A DNA stretch of 25,112 bases from a virus. The notes under the pieces are model-generated. The model saw only the letters and a list, made by a program, of their open reading frames with translations. It ran no database searches and had not been told where the DNA came from. The position numbers and the translations under genes are program-made. Positions 16,853 to 24,917 of the stretch are shown here, in pieces. Positions within the stretch are counted from its first letter, which is position 1. Each line of letters opens with the position of its first letter. The stretch is taken from the IMG/VR virus record IMGVR_UViG_3300050014_000685, positions 1 to 25,112 of that record; one strand, 5' to 3'.

Positions 16853-17649
16853 TGGCTGTAATTAAGGGGGCTGCATCAGCGTCCGGGTTCACACTGGCCA
16901 CTACCAAGGCCAAACACAGGCTTATTATGTCGATTGAGGGGACGGAGAAGTGTGGCAAGAACCACTTTGCCTTTACCGCTCCCGGCCCGGTATACTTCCA
17001 CTCGCTCGACTTCGGCGATGAGGGCGTGATCCAGAAGTTCCAGCCTGGTGGGGCCTTCCACCGTCCCGGCCTCAAGATACACAAGGCCGAATACAGGCTG
17101 GACATCCCGCCCAATACGGCCATCCAGGATGCGGCAGACACCGCTCGTCCGGTATGGTCCAGGTTCCTATCCAACTTTGCCGAGGGATTGGCCAAGGGCA
17201 GGACGACGATTGTGGATACCGCCACCGAGGCATACGAGGTGCTCAGAATGGCGGAGTTCGGCAAGTTGACCCAGGTGATGCCCCACCATTATGGCCCGGT
17301 GAACCAGGTGATGAAGGGGTTATGGCGGGATGCCTACAACTCCGACTCCAACCTGATCATGCTCCACCGGATGAAGGAGGAGTGGGAGAACAAGGTTAAC
17401 AGCCAGGGTAAAGAGGTGGGGAACAAGACTGGGCGCTGGGAGATGGCAGGGTATAAGGGGACATACTTTGAGGCCCAAGTGTGCTGCAGGGCGTACAAGG
17501 AGGGTGGGGAGTTCAAGCTACTGATCTTCGACTGCAGGCAGAATCCTGATCTGGAGGGGATGGTGCTGGAGCAGGGCAGTGGGATGCTGGACTTCAAGAC
17601 CTTAGGTCAACTCGTCTTTCCAGAATCGGAGGAATCAGAATGGCAGTAA
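16852..17649 (+). CDS. RecA-like ATPase, Sak4/AAA-type recombination protein
   Basis: This 265-residue protein has a P-loop EGTEKCGKN (29-37) and a Walker B-like strand RTTIVDTATEAYE (117-129). Length and layout fit the phage AAA/RecA-core ATPases that include Sak4-type single-strand annealing or recombination proteins. The P-loop ends in Lys-Asn rather than Lys-Thr/Ser, an unusual change. The ATG overlaps the upstream TGA. The last 18 codons, from Lys 17596 to the stop, are a recoded version of the 3' end of the following HNH frame. This suggests the HNH gene was inserted here and supplied a new tail (see 17596-18011). It probably works with the nuclease upstream. Confidence 0.7.
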   Translation: MAVIKGAASASGFTLATTKAKHRLIMSIEGTEKCGKNHFAFTAPGPVYFHSLDFGDEGVIQKFQPGGAFHRPGLKIHKAEYRLDIPPNTAIQDAADTARPVWSRFLSNFAEGLAKGRTTIVDTATEAYEVLRMAEFGKLTQVMPHHYGPVNQVMKGLWRDAYNSDSNLIMLHRMKEEWENKVNSQGKEVGNKTGRWEMAGYKGTYFEAQVCCRAYKEGGEFKLLIFDCRQNPDLEGMVLEQGSGMLDFKTLGQLVFPESEESEWQ

Positions 17650-18011
17650 TACCCGACGATTTGAAGGACCTTCCACAAGACTTAGCCACCAGAGTGTGGA
17701 GAAAGAGAATACAAAACTCTGGTTGGAAGAGCCGTAATCCTGAGAAGATGAAAGAAATACAAAAAAACGGGTATAGAAAACTAAGAAAACAAGTGATGGA
17801 CGCCTATGGGGCTAAGTGCAAATGCTGTGGAGAAGAACACGACGAGTTTCTAACTATCGATCATATTGGTGGTGATGGAGCCAAGCACAGAAAAGAAACC
17901 AACAATGAAGTATACGCGTGGCTTAGAAGGAACGGGTATCCAGAAGGATTCCAAGTGTTGTGCATGAATTGTAACTTTTCGATAGGGATGCGAGGATATT
18001 GTCCACACAAC
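17596..18011 (+). mobile_element. inserted HNH homing-type element with recoded host-gene tail
   Basis: The ATPase ends KTLGQLVFPESEESEW plus Q, and the HNH frame ends KTLGQLVFPESDEGEW plus L. Fourteen of 17 residues agree, yet nine of those 14 codons differ in sequence. Removing 17596-18011 joins the ATPase in frame to the second copy, whose TGA overlaps the next gene's ATG (18062) in the usual way. The inserted part is AT-richer. It therefore appears that an HNH gene entered the ATPase 3' end and carried a synonymous tail. That would keep the ATPase functional and destroy the cleavage site. Exact borders are estimates. Confidence 0.75.
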
Positions 18012-18065
18012 AAGACCTTGGGGCAGCTAGTCTTCCCTGAGAGTGATGAGGGGGAATGGTTATGA
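17640..18065 (+). CDS. HNH endonuclease, probable homing enzyme
   Basis: This 141-residue protein has a Lys/Arg-rich N-terminus and a Zn-type HNH core: CKCCG (60-64), LTIDHIGGDG (71-80, D74-H75), QVLCMNCNFSIG (C108, C111) and RGYCPH (C121, H123). Such proteins nick or cut DNA at specific sites and often act as free-standing homing enzymes in phages. The ATG overlaps the last ten bases of the ATPase gene. The last 18 codons are shared with, and probably derived from, the original ATPase 3' end, so they are likely a passenger tail on the nuclease. Base composition is clearly more AT-rich than the neighbours, a sign of transfer. Confidence 0.9.
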   Translation: MAVIPDDLKDLPQDLATRVWRKRIQNSGWKSRNPEKMKEIQKNGYRKLRKQVMDAYGAKCKCCGEEHDEFLTIDHIGGDGAKHRKETNNEVYAWLRRNGYPEGFQVLCMNCNFSIGMRGYCPHNKTLGQLVFPESDEGEWL

Positions 18066-18259: not shown

Positions 18260-18573
18260 TGGGCGGATGTGGCGGTAAGAAAGCAAGAGAGAAGCGGAAG
18301 GCTGGGACCTCCACAGTGGGGGGCAAGTTTGATTCCATAGGCCAGGTTGAAGAGCAGCAGGCCAACCATGCGCTGGTGGTGAGGCTGTTGGCCGAGATAA
18401 TCCCTCTGGTCCACCATGCCTCATCCAACGACCGCCTGTTCCTGCAGGATGTCAGAATAAAGCTGAACCAGCAGGGATCCAACGCCCAATTCGGGTGGCG
18501 TCAGGTGGAAGCCATGGTCAGGGTGCATGCCGAAGTACTGGACAAGGAGGCTCACAGTGGCAAGCGCAATTGA
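18259..18573 (+). CDS. hypothetical protein, 104 residues
   Basis: The ATG at 18259 overlaps the previous TGA and lies six bases after AGGAGG (18247-18252); an in-frame ATG at 18253 would touch that site. The N-terminus is Gly/Lys/Arg-rich (MGGCGGKKAREKRKAG), then two amphipathic helices follow (QQANHALVVRLLAEIIPLV and GWRQVEAMVRVHAEVLDKEA). No known domain is recognised. It overlaps the MazG-like gene by 17 bases and is thus tied to the nucleotide cluster, but it need not share its function. Confidence 0.6.
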   Translation: MGGCGGKKAREKRKAGTSTVGGKFDSIGQVEEQQANHALVVRLLAEIIPLVHHASSNDRLFLQDVRIKLNQQGSNAQFGWRQVEAMVRVHAEVLDKEAHSGKRN

Positions 18574-18964
18574 GCCAGCCGCCCGCGCCCTGGCCCAACG
18601 CACCATCGATCTGGCCCGTCTAGCTGCCATCCGAAAGCATGGGGAATTACAAGGGGGAATGGCCCGCTGGATTCACCACCTGCGGGAGGAGACTGAGGAA
18701 GCCTGTGACGAGATGTTAGCCCTCGGCTTCCACCACACCAATGCTCAATACCACGAACACAAAGTTAACCTTATTACTGAGTTGTCCCAGGTAGCGCAAC
18801 TGGCCCAATCCATGATGACCCTATTGTACCTTAACCGAGAGATGGAGGAGAAAACTCAATGGCAACCGGAAGACCTGAACATATATTCGGATCCAGAACC
18901 GCCGAGCCCAAGCCCATTATCATTGTCCAAGGTGGACAGTGGGGATCAGAAGCTAAAGGGCTGA
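18557..18964 (+). CDS. MazG-like NTP pyrophosphohydrolase, candidate MazZ
   Basis: I start at the GTG at 18557, seven bases after AAGGAGG (135 residues). The core reads KHGELQGGMARWIHHLREET, then EEACDEM, and later LITELSQVAQLAQSMMTLL. This is the all-alpha MazG pattern: EExxE at residues 44-48, and ExxQ at 75-78 where classical MazG has ExxD. In Z-genome phages MazZ converts dGTP to dGMP, the PurZ substrate, and its gene often sits by purZ. Here its last 106 bases overlap purZ, so the two are tightly coupled. The Gln variant is found in some MazG-like phage proteins. Substrate specificity cannot be read from the sequence. Confidence 0.65.
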   Translation: MASAIEPAARALAQRTIDLARLAAIRKHGELQGGMARWIHHLREETEEACDEMLALGFHHTNAQYHEHKVNLITELSQVAQLAQSMMTLLYLNREMEEKTQWQPEDLNIYSDPEPPSPSPLSLSKVDSGDQKLKG

Positions 18965-20226
18965 TCACCCACAAGCTAACCATGGAGAAGAAGGTGGACT
19001 GGGCCATCCGCACCGGCACCGTCAACGCTGGCCACACTGTCTACCACAAGGGTGTGGCCTATGCCATGCAGCAGCTTCCTGTGTCCTGGGTCCGCCCGGA
19101 GTGCATGCTGGTGCTGGGTCCAGGGGCCTATATCCACCCCGACATCCTGATGCGCGAAATTGAGTGGATCATGGAGGCACAGGGGTTGAGGCTGGACACA
19201 GTATTGGACCGGGTATGGATCGATTACCGTTGCGGCATCCATCTACCGTCCCACACCGATCGTGCCCACCATGCCGACCGCCATCATAGCATCGGGACCA
19301 CCGGCAAGGGGTGCTCAGAGGCTGTAATGGACAAGATCAAAGGGCGCGACCAGGATCCTCTCCCCACCTTCCAAGCATGGGTGGCCGACAAGCCGGGGTT
19401 CTGGCAGAATGTAGCCCGGCGCATTACCGACACCACCGTGCTGATGAATGACGCCTATGACGCTGGCGACCAGATCCTGCTGGAGGGGACGCAAGGGACG
19501 CTGCTGGACTTGCACCTCGGCGACTACCCCTTCACCACCCACAAGCAGACCCAGGCGGCCAGTTGGCTTGCAGAGGCCGGATTGTCCTGTACCCTGCAGA
19601 ATGACTTATGGCTGGTAATGCGCACCTACCCGATCAGAGTGGCGGGGAATTCAGGACCGATGCCGGGCGAAATATCCTGGCCGAGGCTGGCCAATCTGAT
19701 CAACGACCGGCAAGGAATAGAGAGGGTGGGGGAGTGGGCGCTCAGCGAGTGGAACGCCGGTCTGGCCCTGGCACGGGCCAACAATTACCCTGAAGCCCCC
19801 AGCCCGGAGCCTGCCTGCTGGACCCAGCAGCAGCGCCAGGAGAACCGGGAGGCGGCCAGCGAATTGCACAATGAAGCGTTCAAGCTGATGTCGACCAAGG
19901 CTCAGGCCGAATTGTGCAAGCTGTTCGAGTTCACCACTGTGACCAAGAAGCTGCGGCGGATTGGCGAGTGGGATTGGAACGTGGCCCAGAAGTCCCTCAT
20001 GCTGAATCGCCCTCACCACATCGCCCTCACCTTCGCCAACTATAAATGGCCCAAGCTGTGGGGAGCAGACTGGAAGCGGGCGTGGGAGGGGTACAGCCAG
20101 TGGGGAGAGTGGGTGGACATCCTTAATACCTTCTCCCGCAAGGAGGCGGCCAGCGGCCCGGTGGGGATGATAAGCTTCGGCCCCCAGATCGAACACACCC
20201 ATATGGACACGGAGACTGCCCGGTGA
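18859..20226 (+). CDS. purZ: PurZ, 2-aminodeoxyadenylosuccinate synthetase
   Basis: This 455-residue PurA homologue carries GGQWGSEAKG (residues 25-34). PurA has GDEGKG there, and its catalytic Asp is replaced by Ser30, the known mark of phage PurZ. PurZ joins dGMP and aspartate to start 2-aminoadenine synthesis. Other family motifs are kept: NAGHTV with H65, SIGTTGKG, EGTQGTLLDL, YPFTT, YPIRVAGNSGP and TVTKKLRRIG. The ATG is seven bases after GGAGGAG and inside the MazG-like gene; no later start would keep the P-loop. Downstream genes include DatZ and the polymerase. The product would be finished by host PurB and kinases to dZTP. Confidence 0.92.
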   Translation: MATGRPEHIFGSRTAEPKPIIIVQGGQWGSEAKGLITHKLTMEKKVDWAIRTGTVNAGHTVYHKGVAYAMQQLPVSWVRPECMLVLGPGAYIHPDILMREIEWIMEAQGLRLDTVLDRVWIDYRCGIHLPSHTDRAHHADRHHSIGTTGKGCSEAVMDKIKGRDQDPLPTFQAWVADKPGFWQNVARRITDTTVLMNDAYDAGDQILLEGTQGTLLDLHLGDYPFTTHKQTQAASWLAEAGLSCTLQNDLWLVMRTYPIRVAGNSGPMPGEISWPRLANLINDRQGIERVGEWALSEWNAGLALARANNYPEAPSPEPACWTQQQRQENREAASELHNEAFKLMSTKAQAELCKLFEFTTVTKKLRRIGEWDWNVAQKSLMLNRPHHIALTFANYKWPKLWGADWKRAWEGYSQWGEWVDILNTFSRKEAASGPVGMISFGPQIEHTHMDTETAR

Positions 20227-20954
20227 TCGTCGACCGCCGTGCAGGTAGCGTGGACCTATACCCCCAACTCCAAATGGCCGGTGTCAAGCCCCTGGAGCTG
20301 GGGGAGTTGGGGTACGGGGACATCCAAATAGAGGGCCGGGGGCCTGAGGGGTGCCCCGTGCTGGTGGGGGTGGAATACAAGAAGCTAGGGGACCTGGCCC
20401 AGTGCATCGACAATGGAAGGTTGGTCGGCCATCAGCTTCCTGGAATGCTGGAGAGTTATGATGATGTCTGGGTTCTGGTGGAGGGCATATGGAAACAGGG
20501 AAGGTTTGGCGAGGTATTGGTCCCGCGAGGGTCAACATGGAAACCACTACGATCTGGGACCGGCAATTTCTCCTATATAGCCATGGAGGGGTTTCTATTG
20601 ACCCTGCAGGAAAAGTTGCAGGTGAAGGTGAGGCTTACTGGTACTGGTGGCCAAACGGTACAGTGGCTATCAGCGCTGAACCGGTGGTGGACTGGGAAAG
20701 ATTGGGATGATCATCGTGCTCATCTTAACTTTGATAATAGTCAAGCCCTCAGCCTTATTGCCCGCCCCTCGCTGGTCCGTAAGATGGCGGCGACTCTACC
20801 GGGTATCGGCTGGGACAAGTCCGGCAAGGTTGCTAGGCACTTTGCCAGTGTGGTGGAGATGGTCAATGCCCCCCAAAATGAGTGGGAGCAGATTGAGGGA
20901 ATTGGTAAGGGCATTGCTAAGAATGTGGTAAAGGCAATGGAAGGCGAGGGGTAG
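20223..20954 (+). CDS. ERCC4-type nuclease with tandem helix-hairpin-helix
   Basis: This 243-residue protein starts at a GTG overlapping the purZ stop. The N-terminal nuclease domain has VDRRAGS (3-9), GD (32-33) and E51-Y-K53 with D57, matching GD-ERK-x3-D of XPF/MUS81-family nucleases with the Arg replaced by Tyr. It is followed by IDNGRLVGHQLPGMLESY, as in these families. The C-terminus carries two helix-hairpin-helix units, ATLPGIGWDKSGKVARHF and EWEQIEGIGKGIAKNVVKAM. Such enzymes cut branched DNA, forks and flaps. Lying between purZ and the polymerase, it probably resolves replication or recombination intermediates. Confidence 0.85.
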   Translation: MIVDRRAGSVDLYPQLQMAGVKPLELGELGYGDIQIEGRGPEGCPVLVGVEYKKLGDLAQCIDNGRLVGHQLPGMLESYDDVWVLVEGIWKQGRFGEVLVPRGSTWKPLRSGTGNFSYIAMEGFLLTLQEKLQVKVRLTGTGGQTVQWLSALNRWWTGKDWDDHRAHLNFDNSQALSLIARPSLVRKMAATLPGIGWDKSGKVARHFASVVEMVNAPQNEWEQIEGIGKGIAKNVVKAMEGEG

Positions 20955-20957
20955 GCC

Positions 20958-21293
20958 ATGAAGAAGAAAAGGGATAGGACAGGAGAATACCAACTCAGAA
21001 AGGACTACCATCGGAACCGACACGCCCGGTTGCGACGCGAAATAGCTCTTTTCCTCCGTGCTTATAAAGCCGAGAACCCTTGTACTGATTGCGGCAACCA
21101 CTTTCCTGAATACGTGATGGAGTTCGACCATGTACCAGAACGCGGGAAGGCTCAATCATTAATATCGGCTGTGGTATCATGGGTTACGCTGGATAGGGAA
21201 ATGGAAAAATGCGACTTGGTGTGCGCTAACTGTCACAAAGTAAGGTCTCACGTTAGAGGTCAGTTCAATAGGAAGAATTATGAGAAAGATTGA
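20958..21293 (+). CDS. HNH endonuclease
   Basis: This 111-residue protein has a Lys/Arg-rich N-terminus, then CTDCGNHFPEYVMEFDHVPE with the Asp-His of HNH, and CDLVCANCHKVRSH with the second Cys pair and metal His. It lies between the ERCC4-type nuclease and the polymerase gene and overlaps the latter by 14 bases. The base composition is more AT-rich than the neighbours, suggesting transfer. It looks like a free-standing homing or DNA-cleaving enzyme. Unlike the HNH gene at 17640, I see no copied tail of a neighbouring gene at its ends. Confidence 0.85.
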   Translation: MKKKRDRTGEYQLRKDYHRNRHARLRREIALFLRAYKAENPCTDCGNHFPEYVMEFDHVPERGKAQSLISAVVSWVTLDREMEKCDLVCANCHKVRSHVRGQFNRKNYEKD

Positions 21294-23868
21294 TCCTCGA
21301 AAAGTCGAAGGTATCATGGTCCATGGTGACGGCCCCCGACCAGCACAGATCATGATCATTGGCGAGAGGCCAGGTATGAATGAGCCGCTTGCCGGTAGAC
21401 CGTTCATAGGCATGGCCGGTGTAGAGCTTAACCGATACCTGCGGCTTGCTGGCATCAACCGCGAAGAAGTCTTTGTGACTAACCTGGTACGCGATTGGCG
21501 AGACGACGACCCCGCCGACTGGGAGATTGCCAGAGACGAAGAGGAACTGTTGAAAGAACTGGCTGAAGTGAAACCGGCACTTATAGTGCCAGTAGGCCGG
21601 TTCGCTATCCGTCATTTCTTGGGGGATGTCGATGTCGAACAGGTACACGGGTTGTTGCACATGGTTGGTAGTCAGGCTGTCTACCCGTGCTATCATCCTG
21701 CTGCTGGCCTTCACTCACCAGACGCCATCCAGTTTATACAGGATGACTTCGCCGGATTAGCCGACCCGTGGACCAGAGTCCTACCCCAGGATAAATTTGG
21801 TAGCAAAGGTCTGGCTTATGGAGAGTGGGGGTGGCCCAACGTCTATGTGCCGCTATTTATGGATACAGAAGGGTGGGAGCACAACCCTTGGTGCCTTACC
21901 TTCTCCACCCAGCCCGGCCAGGGGGGCATCATCATGGCGGGCGACGATCAGAAGCTTCGGCGTGTGAAGGAATGGCTGGCCAACTCCCGCGAACCCCTGG
22001 TCCTACACAACGCCATGCACGACATCGGAGTACTACGGGCATTAGGCGTCCGCATCCCCACTGGCCGCATTATCGACACCATGATACTCGCCTATCTACT
22101 ATGCCTGCTTCCCCAAGGGTTGAAGGCCCTCGCCTATCGTCTGGCTGGGATGCGCATGGATTCGTACGACGAGGTAATAGCACCGGGGCGAGAGGTGGTC
22201 TGGGGAGAGTGGATGGAGGGGGCCAAGGCAGTGGCCGACCAGATGCCCGATCCTGAGGCCGAGCTAGTATGGGACGACAAATCGGCCAATTGGCGGGTGA
22301 AGCAGCCGCAGAGCATAGGGCGCAGGATAGCCCGCATGGTGCAGGACGTCGAGAAGAAGGGCATACTGCATCCAGACAACCCCTCCGGAGTGGATATACG
22401 GAAGCGGGTAGATAGCTGGGATGATACTGGGGCGGAAGCGCTGGTGACGGCCATCGGCCCAGTGCCGGAGCCGACCCTGTCGGACATCCCCAGGGAGAGG
22501 GCCATCCACTACGCCTGCCGGGATGCAGACGCTACTGGGCGGGTATTCCCCTTTCTGGTCAAGAAGGTGAAGGACGAGGGGATGTGGGACGTGTGCATGA
22601 TAGACCACGGCATAATGCCGATGGTGGAAAGGATGCAGGCTAATGGACTTCTGGTCGACAAAGCACATATGGAGATGCTTGAGGGCAGACTCACACAGGA
22701 AATGTCTGACAAGCGAGACGAGATTGAAGCGATGGTTGGAGTCAGAATCAACCCCAGTAGCCCACCGCAGACTGCGGCCCTACTGTTTAAGCAACTTAAG
22801 CTCCCCTCGCGTAAGACAACCAGCACCGGCCAGGATAGCACGCAAGATAAGGTTCTGGAAGGCCTTCGCCTTGCTCATCCAGTCGTGCCCCTGGTCCTCG
22901 ACTACCGCGAGTTGGATAAAGCGAGGGGATCGTTCGTTAGGGTGGCACTCACCAAAACCGGAAGTGACAACCGTCTACGATGTAATTTGCGCCTTACGAG
23001 AGTTAGTTCGGGGCGGATCGCTGCAAACACCCCTAACCTCATGGCGATTCCGGTACGGTCGGCGATCGGCAAGGAAATCAGGCAGGGATTTATAGCTCCC
23101 CCCGGCAAGCTGCTGGCCGACTGGGACCTGGATCAAGCAGAGATGAGGTTTATGGCGCATGACTCACAAGACGCATCGCTTGTTGATATCTTCTGTGGTG
23201 GACACCTTGACATCCATACTGACACAGCGGCCCGGATGTTCAGTAAGCCCTATGCCGATGTTGATAAAAACACGGAACGTTACGCAGCTAAACGAGTGGG
23301 CTTTGGAGTTATTACTGGAATTACGGGAGCGGGGTTGGTCGATCAGATGGTGCTGGCAGGTGCCAAGCGGCCAGACGGGGGAGAGTGGACAGAAGGCCAA
23401 TGTGACGATCTTATCGCCCGGTGGTTTCAAGCTAGACCTGGAGTTGCAGTCTACATGGACCGGTGCCGGGCTGAAGCTAGACGCCAGGGCTGGGTCGCTG
23501 ATATGTGGGGGAGAAGGAGGTATCTACCAGGCGTCTGGAGCAGCGTTGAGAGAATACGAGAAGAAGCTTGCCGACAGTCTCACAGCCATAAGATCCAAGC
23601 CGGAGCGCAAGGGTACTTCAAGATAGCAATGGCCCGGATATGGTGGTGGCTGGAGGAGGTATGGTGGCCGAGGGGTGGGAGGTGGGCGGAGATTGAACCG
23701 CTGCTGCAGATACACGACAGCCTGCTGTTTGAACTGCCAGACGACAAAGAGATTGTGGAAGAAGTGGACCAAGTGGTGGTAATGGAGATGGCTGGGGCGG
23801 CGGAATTGAGGGTGCCGATGGGGGCCAAAGGGGGTAGGGCGAAGAATTGGGGAGATCTGAAGGGGTAG
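21280..23868 (+). CDS. family A DNA polymerase fused to UDG-like domain, DpoZ candidate
   Basis: This 862-residue replicative polymerase has three parts. Residues about 20-165 resemble family 4 uracil-DNA glycosylase: GERPGMNEPLAGRPFIGMAG (E29, E35), VTN with N68, and YHPAA with H139; the usual iron-sulfur cysteines are absent. The 3'-5' exonuclease is complete: DTEG (195-198), N244 and D248, and YxxxD (Y411, D415). The polymerase shows motif A (D616, DLDQAEMR), O-helix KRVGFGVITG (671-680) and motif C HDS (812-814). The O-helix Tyr of E. coli Pol I is Thr679 here, and motif C has Ser for Glu. Context with purZ and datZ suggests it copies Z-containing DNA. Confidence 0.9.
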   Translation: MRKIDPRKVEGIMVHGDGPRPAQIMIIGERPGMNEPLAGRPFIGMAGVELNRYLRLAGINREEVFVTNLVRDWRDDDPADWEIARDEEELLKELAEVKPALIVPVGRFAIRHFLGDVDVEQVHGLLHMVGSQAVYPCYHPAAGLHSPDAIQFIQDDFAGLADPWTRVLPQDKFGSKGLAYGEWGWPNVYVPLFMDTEGWEHNPWCLTFSTQPGQGGIIMAGDDQKLRRVKEWLANSREPLVLHNAMHDIGVLRALGVRIPTGRIIDTMILAYLLCLLPQGLKALAYRLAGMRMDSYDEVIAPGREVVWGEWMEGAKAVADQMPDPEAELVWDDKSANWRVKQPQSIGRRIARMVQDVEKKGILHPDNPSGVDIRKRVDSWDDTGAEALVTAIGPVPEPTLSDIPRERAIHYACRDADATGRVFPFLVKKVKDEGMWDVCMIDHGIMPMVERMQANGLLVDKAHMEMLEGRLTQEMSDKRDEIEAMVGVRINPSSPPQTAALLFKQLKLPSRKTTSTGQDSTQDKVLEGLRLAHPVVPLVLDYRELDKARGSFVRVALTKTGSDNRLRCNLRLTRVSSGRIAANTPNLMAIPVRSAIGKEIRQGFIAPPGKLLADWDLDQAEMRFMAHDSQDASLVDIFCGGHLDIHTDTAARMFSKPYADVDKNTERYAAKRVGFGVITGITGAGLVDQMVLAGAKRPDGGEWTEGQCDDLIARWFQARPGVAVYMDRCRAEARRQGWVADMWGRRRYLPGVWSSVERIREEACRQSHSHKIQAGAQGYFKIAMARIWWWLEEVWWPRGGRWAEIEPLLQIHDSLLFELPDDKEIVEEVDQVVVMEMAGAAELRVPMGAKGGRAKNWGDLKG

Positions 23869-23949: not shown

Positions 23950-24384
23950 ATGTCAAGCAAATCAGCACTAGAGAAGGCTGCAGAGGAATTGGCCCTACAG
24001 TCGTGGGACGAGGTAGAAGCCCTGGCCGAGTCCAAGGTAACCATAACCGGAGCAGGGTCGGGAGTAGAGACAGTGGAACTGGACTTCGCTGACGCTATCA
24101 GCCTTCGCGAGGAGCTTAAGTCCCGTATCGATACGGACACCCTCAAGCTCAAGGAGATCAACGACAACCTGCTAGTGGCTGCGCTGGGGGCAGAGGTACA
24201 GAAGGTTAAACTGTGGGCAGGGATGACCTTCGAGGTGCGGTCGGGGCGGTCGGCCAGCAAGATTGTGGCCACCAGGCTGCTGGAGCAGGGAGTAAGCTTG
24301 GACCAGATCCAATCGGCTACGGTCGAGGGTTCGGCTTACCAGTACGTCCAGGTGAATAAACCCAAGCCGCCGAAGGGAGCATGA
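23950..24384 (+). CDS. helical hypothetical protein, 144 residues
   Basis: This protein starts MSSKSALEKAAEELALQSWD with GGGGAGG nine bases upstream. The N-terminal half is acidic and helical with a possible coiled coil around residues 45-75 (DAISLREELKSRIDTDTLKL). The C-terminal half has KVKLWAGMTFEVRSGRSASK and a basic end. No catalytic motif or family is recognised. It is the first gene after the fifth promoter and its TGA overlaps the datZ ATG, so it is translated together with the nucleotide enzyme. A function in DNA metabolism is possible by context only. Confidence 0.6.
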   Translation: MSSKSALEKAAEELALQSWDEVEALAESKVTITGAGSGVETVELDFADAISLREELKSRIDTDTLKLKEINDNLLVAALGAEVQKVKLWAGMTFEVRSGRSASKIVATRLLEQGVSLDQIQSATVEGSAYQYVQVNKPKPPKGA

Positions 24385-24917
24385 TGGTGGGCCAGTCGAG
24401 GGTAAGGGACCTATTAAACCTGTCATATGTCAAGCGGTGGGTGATCGCCCCGATGTACCGGGAACAGTCGGTGGCGGAGCATACCTTTCGCGTGATGGTG
24501 ATACTATGGGGCCTGCACGACGCACTGCTGTCTGCAGGCCACGTCTCATTCCCAATTTGCGACGGTCTGATGGATGCCATGTTGCACGATGTGGATGAAG
24601 TATACAGTGGGGATGTGCCGGGGCCGCACAAGGATAAGAGCAAGGGATGGAAAGACCCGGCCACCATGATGAACTTGGAAGTGGCAGTTAAGGTGGCCGA
24701 CAGTCTGGAGACCTGGGACTGGTGGAGGAAGCATGGGGATAAGGGATGGGGACACGATATGAAGCCTGCATGGGGGCCTGAGTGCCGGGATATCAAGAAA
24801 ATCCACCATTACTGCCGAGAGTGGCCCGAACTATTGGAGGCGGCCAAGGTGGTAGTAGAATTGGCCATGGGGTGTGGTAAAATCGAAATGGAGGGGGTAT
24901 TCTATGTTGGACACTAG
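24381..24917 (+). CDS. datZ: DatZ-like HD-domain dATP triphosphohydrolase
   Basis: This 178-residue protein is a YfbR/DatZ-type HD hydrolase. It has KRWVIAPMYREQSVAEHTFR with H34, then LHDVDEVYSGDVPGPHK with H69-D70, and VKVADSLETWDW with D107, the four expected metal ligands. In Z-genome phages DatZ breaks dATP into deoxyadenosine and triphosphate. That empties the dATP pool so the polymerase inserts Z instead of A. Length fits DatZ (about 175 residues). The ATG overlaps the preceding stop. YfbR-type 5'-nucleotidases share the fold, so activity on dAMP is the main alternative; the presence of purZ favours DatZ. Confidence 0.85.
   Translation: MMVGQSRVRDLLNLSYVKRWVIAPMYREQSVAEHTFRVMVILWGLHDALLSAGHVSFPICDGLMDAMLHDVDEVYSGDVPGPHKDKSKGWKDPATMMNLEVAVKVADSLETWDWWRKHGDKGWGHDMKPAWGPECRDIKKIHHYCREWPELLEAAKVVVELAMGCGKIEMEGVFYVGH

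Follow-up and report, generated by a model that had tools for sequence, protein, structure and literature searches.

The purZ gene described in this work belongs to a separate, undescribed phage branch that has an insert and an unusual DNA polymerase of its own, and its product is very probably a PurZ enzyme making the 2-aminoadenine precursor in concert with DatZ, a probable MazG-type enzyme and a UDG-fused PolA polymerase (UDG-PolA), with adenine being replaced across the phage genome. The gene lies in a 25,112-base IMG/VR record of an uncultivated phage, probably a fragment, which is hereafter called the window. The P-loop serine highlighted by the first-pass annotation is an ordinary and already known PurZ hallmark; the novelty resides in the surrounding system, most likely a Z-genome lineage with its own PurZ insert and a separately derived polymerase.

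The gene (18859..20226, plus strand) encodes a purZ-type adenylosuccinate synthetase of 455 aa and is preceded by its own Shine-Dalgarno-like GGAGGAG; the product matches the phage PurZ family phrog_1211 (1.3e-63) and PF00709 (1.4e-47), as well as PurA, PurZ and PurZ0 in structure. At these values, family membership exceeds chance by a wide margin. Its P-loop, GGQWGSEAKG (residues 25-34), is encoded in frame at 18931..18960 on the plus strand, and a search of the window with the back-translated motif gives one hit against 0.00 expected. The first-pass annotation had recognized the motif itself but placed it one codon late, since 18934-18963 encodes GQWGSEAKGL. Within the loop, Ser30 (codon TCA, 18946-18948) corresponds to Asp13 of E. 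coli PurA (GTQWGDEGKG) and to S-2L Ser23, an assignment that had been proposed and that is unambiguous in the alignment with E. coli PurA, S-2L, phiVC8 and PurZ0. Ser is found in 100% of 147 phage PurZ and Asp13 in 99% of PurA sequences (PMC12884076), and thus Ser30 represents the normal PurZ state. The reading of this residue as the switch from IMP to dGMP use stood as far as the PurZ hallmark is concerned, but not as proof of dGMP use by Ser alone, which is ruled out by Ser-bearing chromosomal paralogues of bacteria and archaea in unrelated operons; as a warning from this census, Ser at the Asp13 position is not enough by itself for a PurZ annotation. The hydrogen bond once postulated between the Ser hydroxyl and the 2-amino group would be too long in the S-2L structure, where the two are 3.7 A apart (PMC8342488). 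The window combines an adenylosuccinate synthetase fold, Ser at Asp13, a P-loop within the known range, and linked pool genes and polymerase; with the NCBIfam PurZ model NF038379, which was built on known subgroups and covers 293 positions, the protein scores 194 bits, below the curated cut-off of 300.

The alanine following the glutamate (Ala32, codon 18952-18954) had been suggested as a lineage-specific variant, a notion not borne out by the alignment, in which Ala is frequent and homoplastic. Loop counts among the relatives were GSEGK 128, GSEAK 33, GSTGK 7, GSTAK 2 and GSESK 1, with GDEGK in 3 PurA of the same comparison, and Ala was also present in the PurZ0 of Wayne, Ghobes, Hiyaa and TurboVicky and in the PurZ0 structure 7vf6. 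On the tree, the position underwent at least 13 changes, all states considered, and Ala, Gly and Ser all occur there within the window's own clade; Ala32 is probably a neutral alternative to Gly.

Chromosomal Ser-bearing paralogues were recognized in a scan covering 84,980 genomes of bacteria and archaea; it recovered dozens of chromosomal proteins with GSEGKG and, by requiring Ser in one of two patterns, shows their existence, not their frequency. In loci L099-L177 (e.g., L106:7834-12152 and L113:7953-11855), the PurZ-like protein is part of a conserved operon, its upstream neighbour being an RNase_H_2 + kinase-like P-loop protein (in some, DUF429) and its downstream neighbour a dCTP-deaminase/dUTPase-like protein, and a similarity search identified homologues of both neighbours in 45 of 80 loci. 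The operon resembles the phage Z clusters (PurZ plus a Dut-like protein) and might serve cellular 2-amino-adenine nucleotide synthesis. Some loci (L159:9440-11673, also L109, L141 and others) display a P-loop kinase-like domain fused N-terminally to the Ser-bearing PurZ-like protein (about 540 aa), an architecture followed by a DUF7002 protein downstream, and in Nostoc linckia (L106:6177-12152) the operon adjoins a type I restriction methyltransferase (HsdM) gene. A literature search for the chromosomal PurZ-like operon found nothing.

The AlphaFold model of the window protein (mean pLDDT 90.1) superposed on P. horikoshii PurA with a Z of 44.0, on PurZ0 7vf6 with 40.9, on phiVC8 PurZ with 40.7 and on S-2L PurZ with 38.4. 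By alignment, the TYPIRV motif (19624..19641, plus strand; R260 and V261) corresponds to R240/V241 of S-2L, where V241 is credited with keeping out the ribose 2'-OH (PMC8342488), and the aspartate-substrate loop TTVTKK (19933..19950, plus strand) to S-2L T273-T276. Ser30, N56-A57-G58-H59-T60, V261, TTVT and Arg366 all match S-2L and phiVC8 PurZ. In the nucleotide-base recognition motif LTFANY (20026..20043, plus strand), Asn394 aligns with Q308 of S-2L and N297 of phiVC8, which contact the adenine of ATP, and is of the ATP type, the same position being Asp in PurA and PurZ0. Asn is present in 8/8 members of the window clade and in 7/9 additional PurZ retrieved by way of the polymerase scan, the other two (L184 and L233) having Asp. 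Regarding the donor, PMC12884076 words the preference as ATP for PurZ0 and GTP for PurZ; our assignment follows the structures, because that wording conflicts with the paper's own introduction and with the ATP/dATP structures of PurZ. An insert of ~60-70 aa that is specific to the clade (19693..19908, plus strand; about residues 279-350), delimited by spacing comparison and mainly helical in the AlphaFold model, directly precedes the aspartate-binding loop: the spacing from RxxPIRV to TTVT is 85-101 residues in 8/8 clade members versus 22-36 in all others measured, and the insert is present in all eight and in 0 of ~150 others.

In a tree of 111 sequences, the window grouped with L018, L020, L021 and L025 (SH-aLRT 96), and then with L022, L023 and L024 (100); together they make up a strongly supported clade of uncultivated phages that lies apart from both cultured groups (PurZ0 and PurZ). 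No nucleotide-level match to the window was found among phage genomes; likewise, a scan of viral contigs with the single protein found no relative, whereas the alignment-based scan did retrieve relatives. One alternative is that the clade is a divergent member of the phiVC8/S-2L PurZ lineage retaining an older GSE(A/G)KG loop, with nothing independent in it, a possibility that we place somewhat short of even. It is consistent with the DatZ, MazG-like gene and ATP-type Asn common to both, and with a joint clade with the PurZ references, which was not rejected (p-AU 0.53); against it, the free tree placed the clade nearer PurZ0 and apart from phiVC8/S-2L PurZ, the loop of the PurZ references is GSTGKG and they lack the insert, and the window polymerase falls in another PolA branch than phiVC8 DpoZ. 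When the clade was made to join only the cultured PurZ0 rows, the p-AU was 0.02, a value of little meaning because these rows nest among other viruses. Since the joint clade with PurZ was not rejected, an independent origin of the ATP-type Asn cannot be claimed.

In the window, the terminase gene is on the minus strand and the replication/nucleotide block on the plus strand. The order helicase, nucleases, purZ, ERCC4/HHH nuclease and polymerase is kept in relatives, the ERCC4/HHH-type nuclease (20223..20954, plus strand) being conserved next to purZ across the clade, and both datZ and PolA lie at most 5 kb from purZ in an arrangement that is also conserved. A small gene between the polymerase and datZ (23950..24384, plus strand) is conserved, as judged by eye, a comparable ORF occupying the equivalent position in L020, L021, L022 and L025. 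Two small HNH endonuclease-like ORFs (20958-21293 and 17640-18065, also by eye) break up the replication block, one of them sitting between the nuclease and polymerase genes. In two clade members, the ORF directly before purZ is either a weak match to Ghobes PurB, an adenylosuccinate lyase (L023:6640-7947), or PurB-like by eye (L024:8943-9989).

The polymerase gene (21280..23868, plus strand) encodes a fusion of UDG (PF03167, 2.8e-21), a 3'-5' exonuclease (PF01612, 1e-8) and a family-A DNA polymerase (PF00476, 1e-79), making it a DpoZ candidate that falls in a PolA branch away from both DpoZ clades. Its Thr679 (codon 23314..23316, plus strand) corresponds to Tyr766 of E. coli Pol I in helix O, a position that is Phe in phiVC8-type DpoZ, Wayne, Ghobes, Parvaparticeps and TurboVicky, Tyr in Hiyaa, and Thr in the window clade. 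A helix-O Tyr-to-Phe replacement is the one change common to both DpoZ clades, and no single residue responsible for Z-over-A selectivity has been found in DpoZ (PMC8599892). In L018:6088-7547, L020:5930-8424, L021:8608-11069 and L025:11917-14411, the UDG-exonuclease/polymerase is split into two overlapping genes with the exonuclease domain cut, while the window and L022 have a single fused gene; a programmed frameshift was set aside for the split forms, as the second ORF begins with a conserved start of its own, [AG]TGGCTA.

Thr at helix O was found in 10 of 109 sampled polymerases, all in purZ-bearing records. One of these belongs to a virus outside the window clade (L033:6721-8895), in which Thr is probably an independent change. 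Within the UDG-PolA family, none of the 10 purZ-bearing members keeps the helix-O Tyr (9 Thr, 1 Asn), and Thr was present in 9/10 purZ-bearing versus 0/37 longer purZ-less records (Fisher 7e-9, from a table of related rows that takes in five found through purZ); leaving those five out, purZ accompanied 4/4 Thr rows versus 1/38 others (by hand, about 5e-5). Whole-record searches of the purZ-less records found no purZ, a result that is weak for short records because they are often fragments. Thr is not required, as 23 other purZ-bearing rows keep Tyr. This retention would suit a lineage accident in which Thr merely travels with purZ and is not an adaptation to Z-DNA, an explanation that we regard as slightly doubtful. 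Supported branches yielded only 3 independent pairs, too few for a sign test to reach 0.05, which also leaves room for an accident; on the other hand, no pair ran in the opposite direction, and the confinement of Thr to purZ-bearing records extends to the distant L033.

With regard to the pool enzymes, the datZ-type HD phosphohydrolase (dATP triphosphohydrolase; 24381..24917, plus strand; phrog_7076, 1e-17) conserves R19, W20, I22, Q29, H34, H69, D70 and D107, thereby keeping the metal- and phosphate-binding residues plus I22, which excludes the 2-amino group in S-2L. Homologues are also present in L020, L022, L025, L182, L184, L190 and L241. The ORF at 18557..18964 (plus strand, GTG start) is a probable MazG-type NTP pyrophosphohydrolase and MazZ candidate: homologues occur in most relatives, upstream of purZ or overlapping its start, and their HG...EExxE...ExxQ signature, together with this position, suggests a MazG-type enzyme. 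The best MazG profile match was sub-threshold (PF03819, 0.002, in the relative L020), AlphaFold and Foldseek gave no match to a MazG fold for the window product, and profile-profile comparison with DUF5664/DUF550-type proteins of Acinetobacter and Klebsiella phages returned nothing.

From the residues, alignment, fold, gene neighbourhood and clade described above, we infer a substrate, a nucleotide donor, a pathway order and a Z-genome. The choice of dGMP follows from Ser30 taken together with the conserved V261 (S-2L V241), TTVT and Arg, and with the DatZ and polymerase encoded nearby. PurZ would condense dGMP and L-aspartate into N6-succino-2-amino-dAMP, driven by ATP (or dATP), and host enzymes would complete dZTP; DatZ would remove dATP, and the probable MazG-type enzyme would convert dGTP into dGMP. 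Along with the UDG-fused PolA polymerase, these enzymes would exchange adenine for 2-aminoadenine throughout the genome. Points against the PurZ assignment are the best match being the IMP/GTP PurA 5k7x, the NF038379 score below cut-off, Ser in chromosomal paralogues, Asp at the base position in L184 and L233, two members of the wider clade, and the sub-threshold MazG. A PurA-like enzyme acting on IMP (or dIMP/GMP), its Ser a neutral leftover from a PurA ancestor of archaeal type and its function unrelated to Z-DNA, would fit the archaeal PurA as nearest solved structure and the many chromosomal Ser-bearing homologues in operons unlike phage Z clusters, but is highly improbable, given that the catalytic base Asp13 is absent, the linked DatZ has the residues of a dATPase sparing dZTP, and the linked polymerase is altered at a position changed in most DpoZ.

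On top of the PurZ assignment, we give an even chance to a third 2-aminoadenine phage lineage, which would have separately recruited a UDG-PolA that is Z-selective with the helix-O Tyr-to-Thr change, along with its own PurZ with a helical insert and an ATP-type pocket. If true, a third Z-DNA polymerase lineage would matter because the preference of DpoZ for Z over A has yet to be explained, and the Tyr-to-Thr lineages with their close purZ-less Tyr relatives would offer a direct mutational test of it.

Compared with known systems, the PurZ0 of actinophages (Wayne, Ghobes, Hiyaa; 7vf6, from Gordonia phage Archimedes) shares with the window protein the fold, Ser at Asp13 and the GSEAKG loop with both Ser and Ala, but carries a GTP-type Asp for base recognition where the window protein has Asn394, lacks the insert, and is partnered by DutZ/DmtZ instead of DatZ; dutZ is present in 98/98 PurZ0 genomes (PMC12884076), and none was found in L020, L025 or the window, although the window record is a fragment. 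The PurZ of phiVC8 and S-2L (6fm1, 6tnh, 7odx) resembles it in Ser, the V241 equivalent, TTVT, Asn/Gln at the adenine position and the DatZ partner, and differs in GSTGKG (Thr for Glu; 7 references) and in the absence of the 60-70-aa insert; S-2L, moreover, has PrimPol where the window has UDG-PolA. The archaeal-type PurA of P. horikoshii (5k7x), although the best sequence and structure match, is a shorter GTP/IMP enzyme that keeps the catalytic Asp (GGQWGDEGKG) and lacks the insert. S-2L DatZ has R19, W20, I22, Q29 and the HD metal ligands in common with the window DatZ at only 21% identity, and the window gene follows the polymerase rather than lying beside purZ and mazZ. Finally, DpoZ-1 and DpoZ-2 are likewise family A polymerases with an exonuclease, encoded beside purZ and changed at the helix-O Tyr, but to Phe (in most of those sampled) instead of Thr, while the window polymerase adds an N-terminal UDG domain and occupies a PolA branch of its own.
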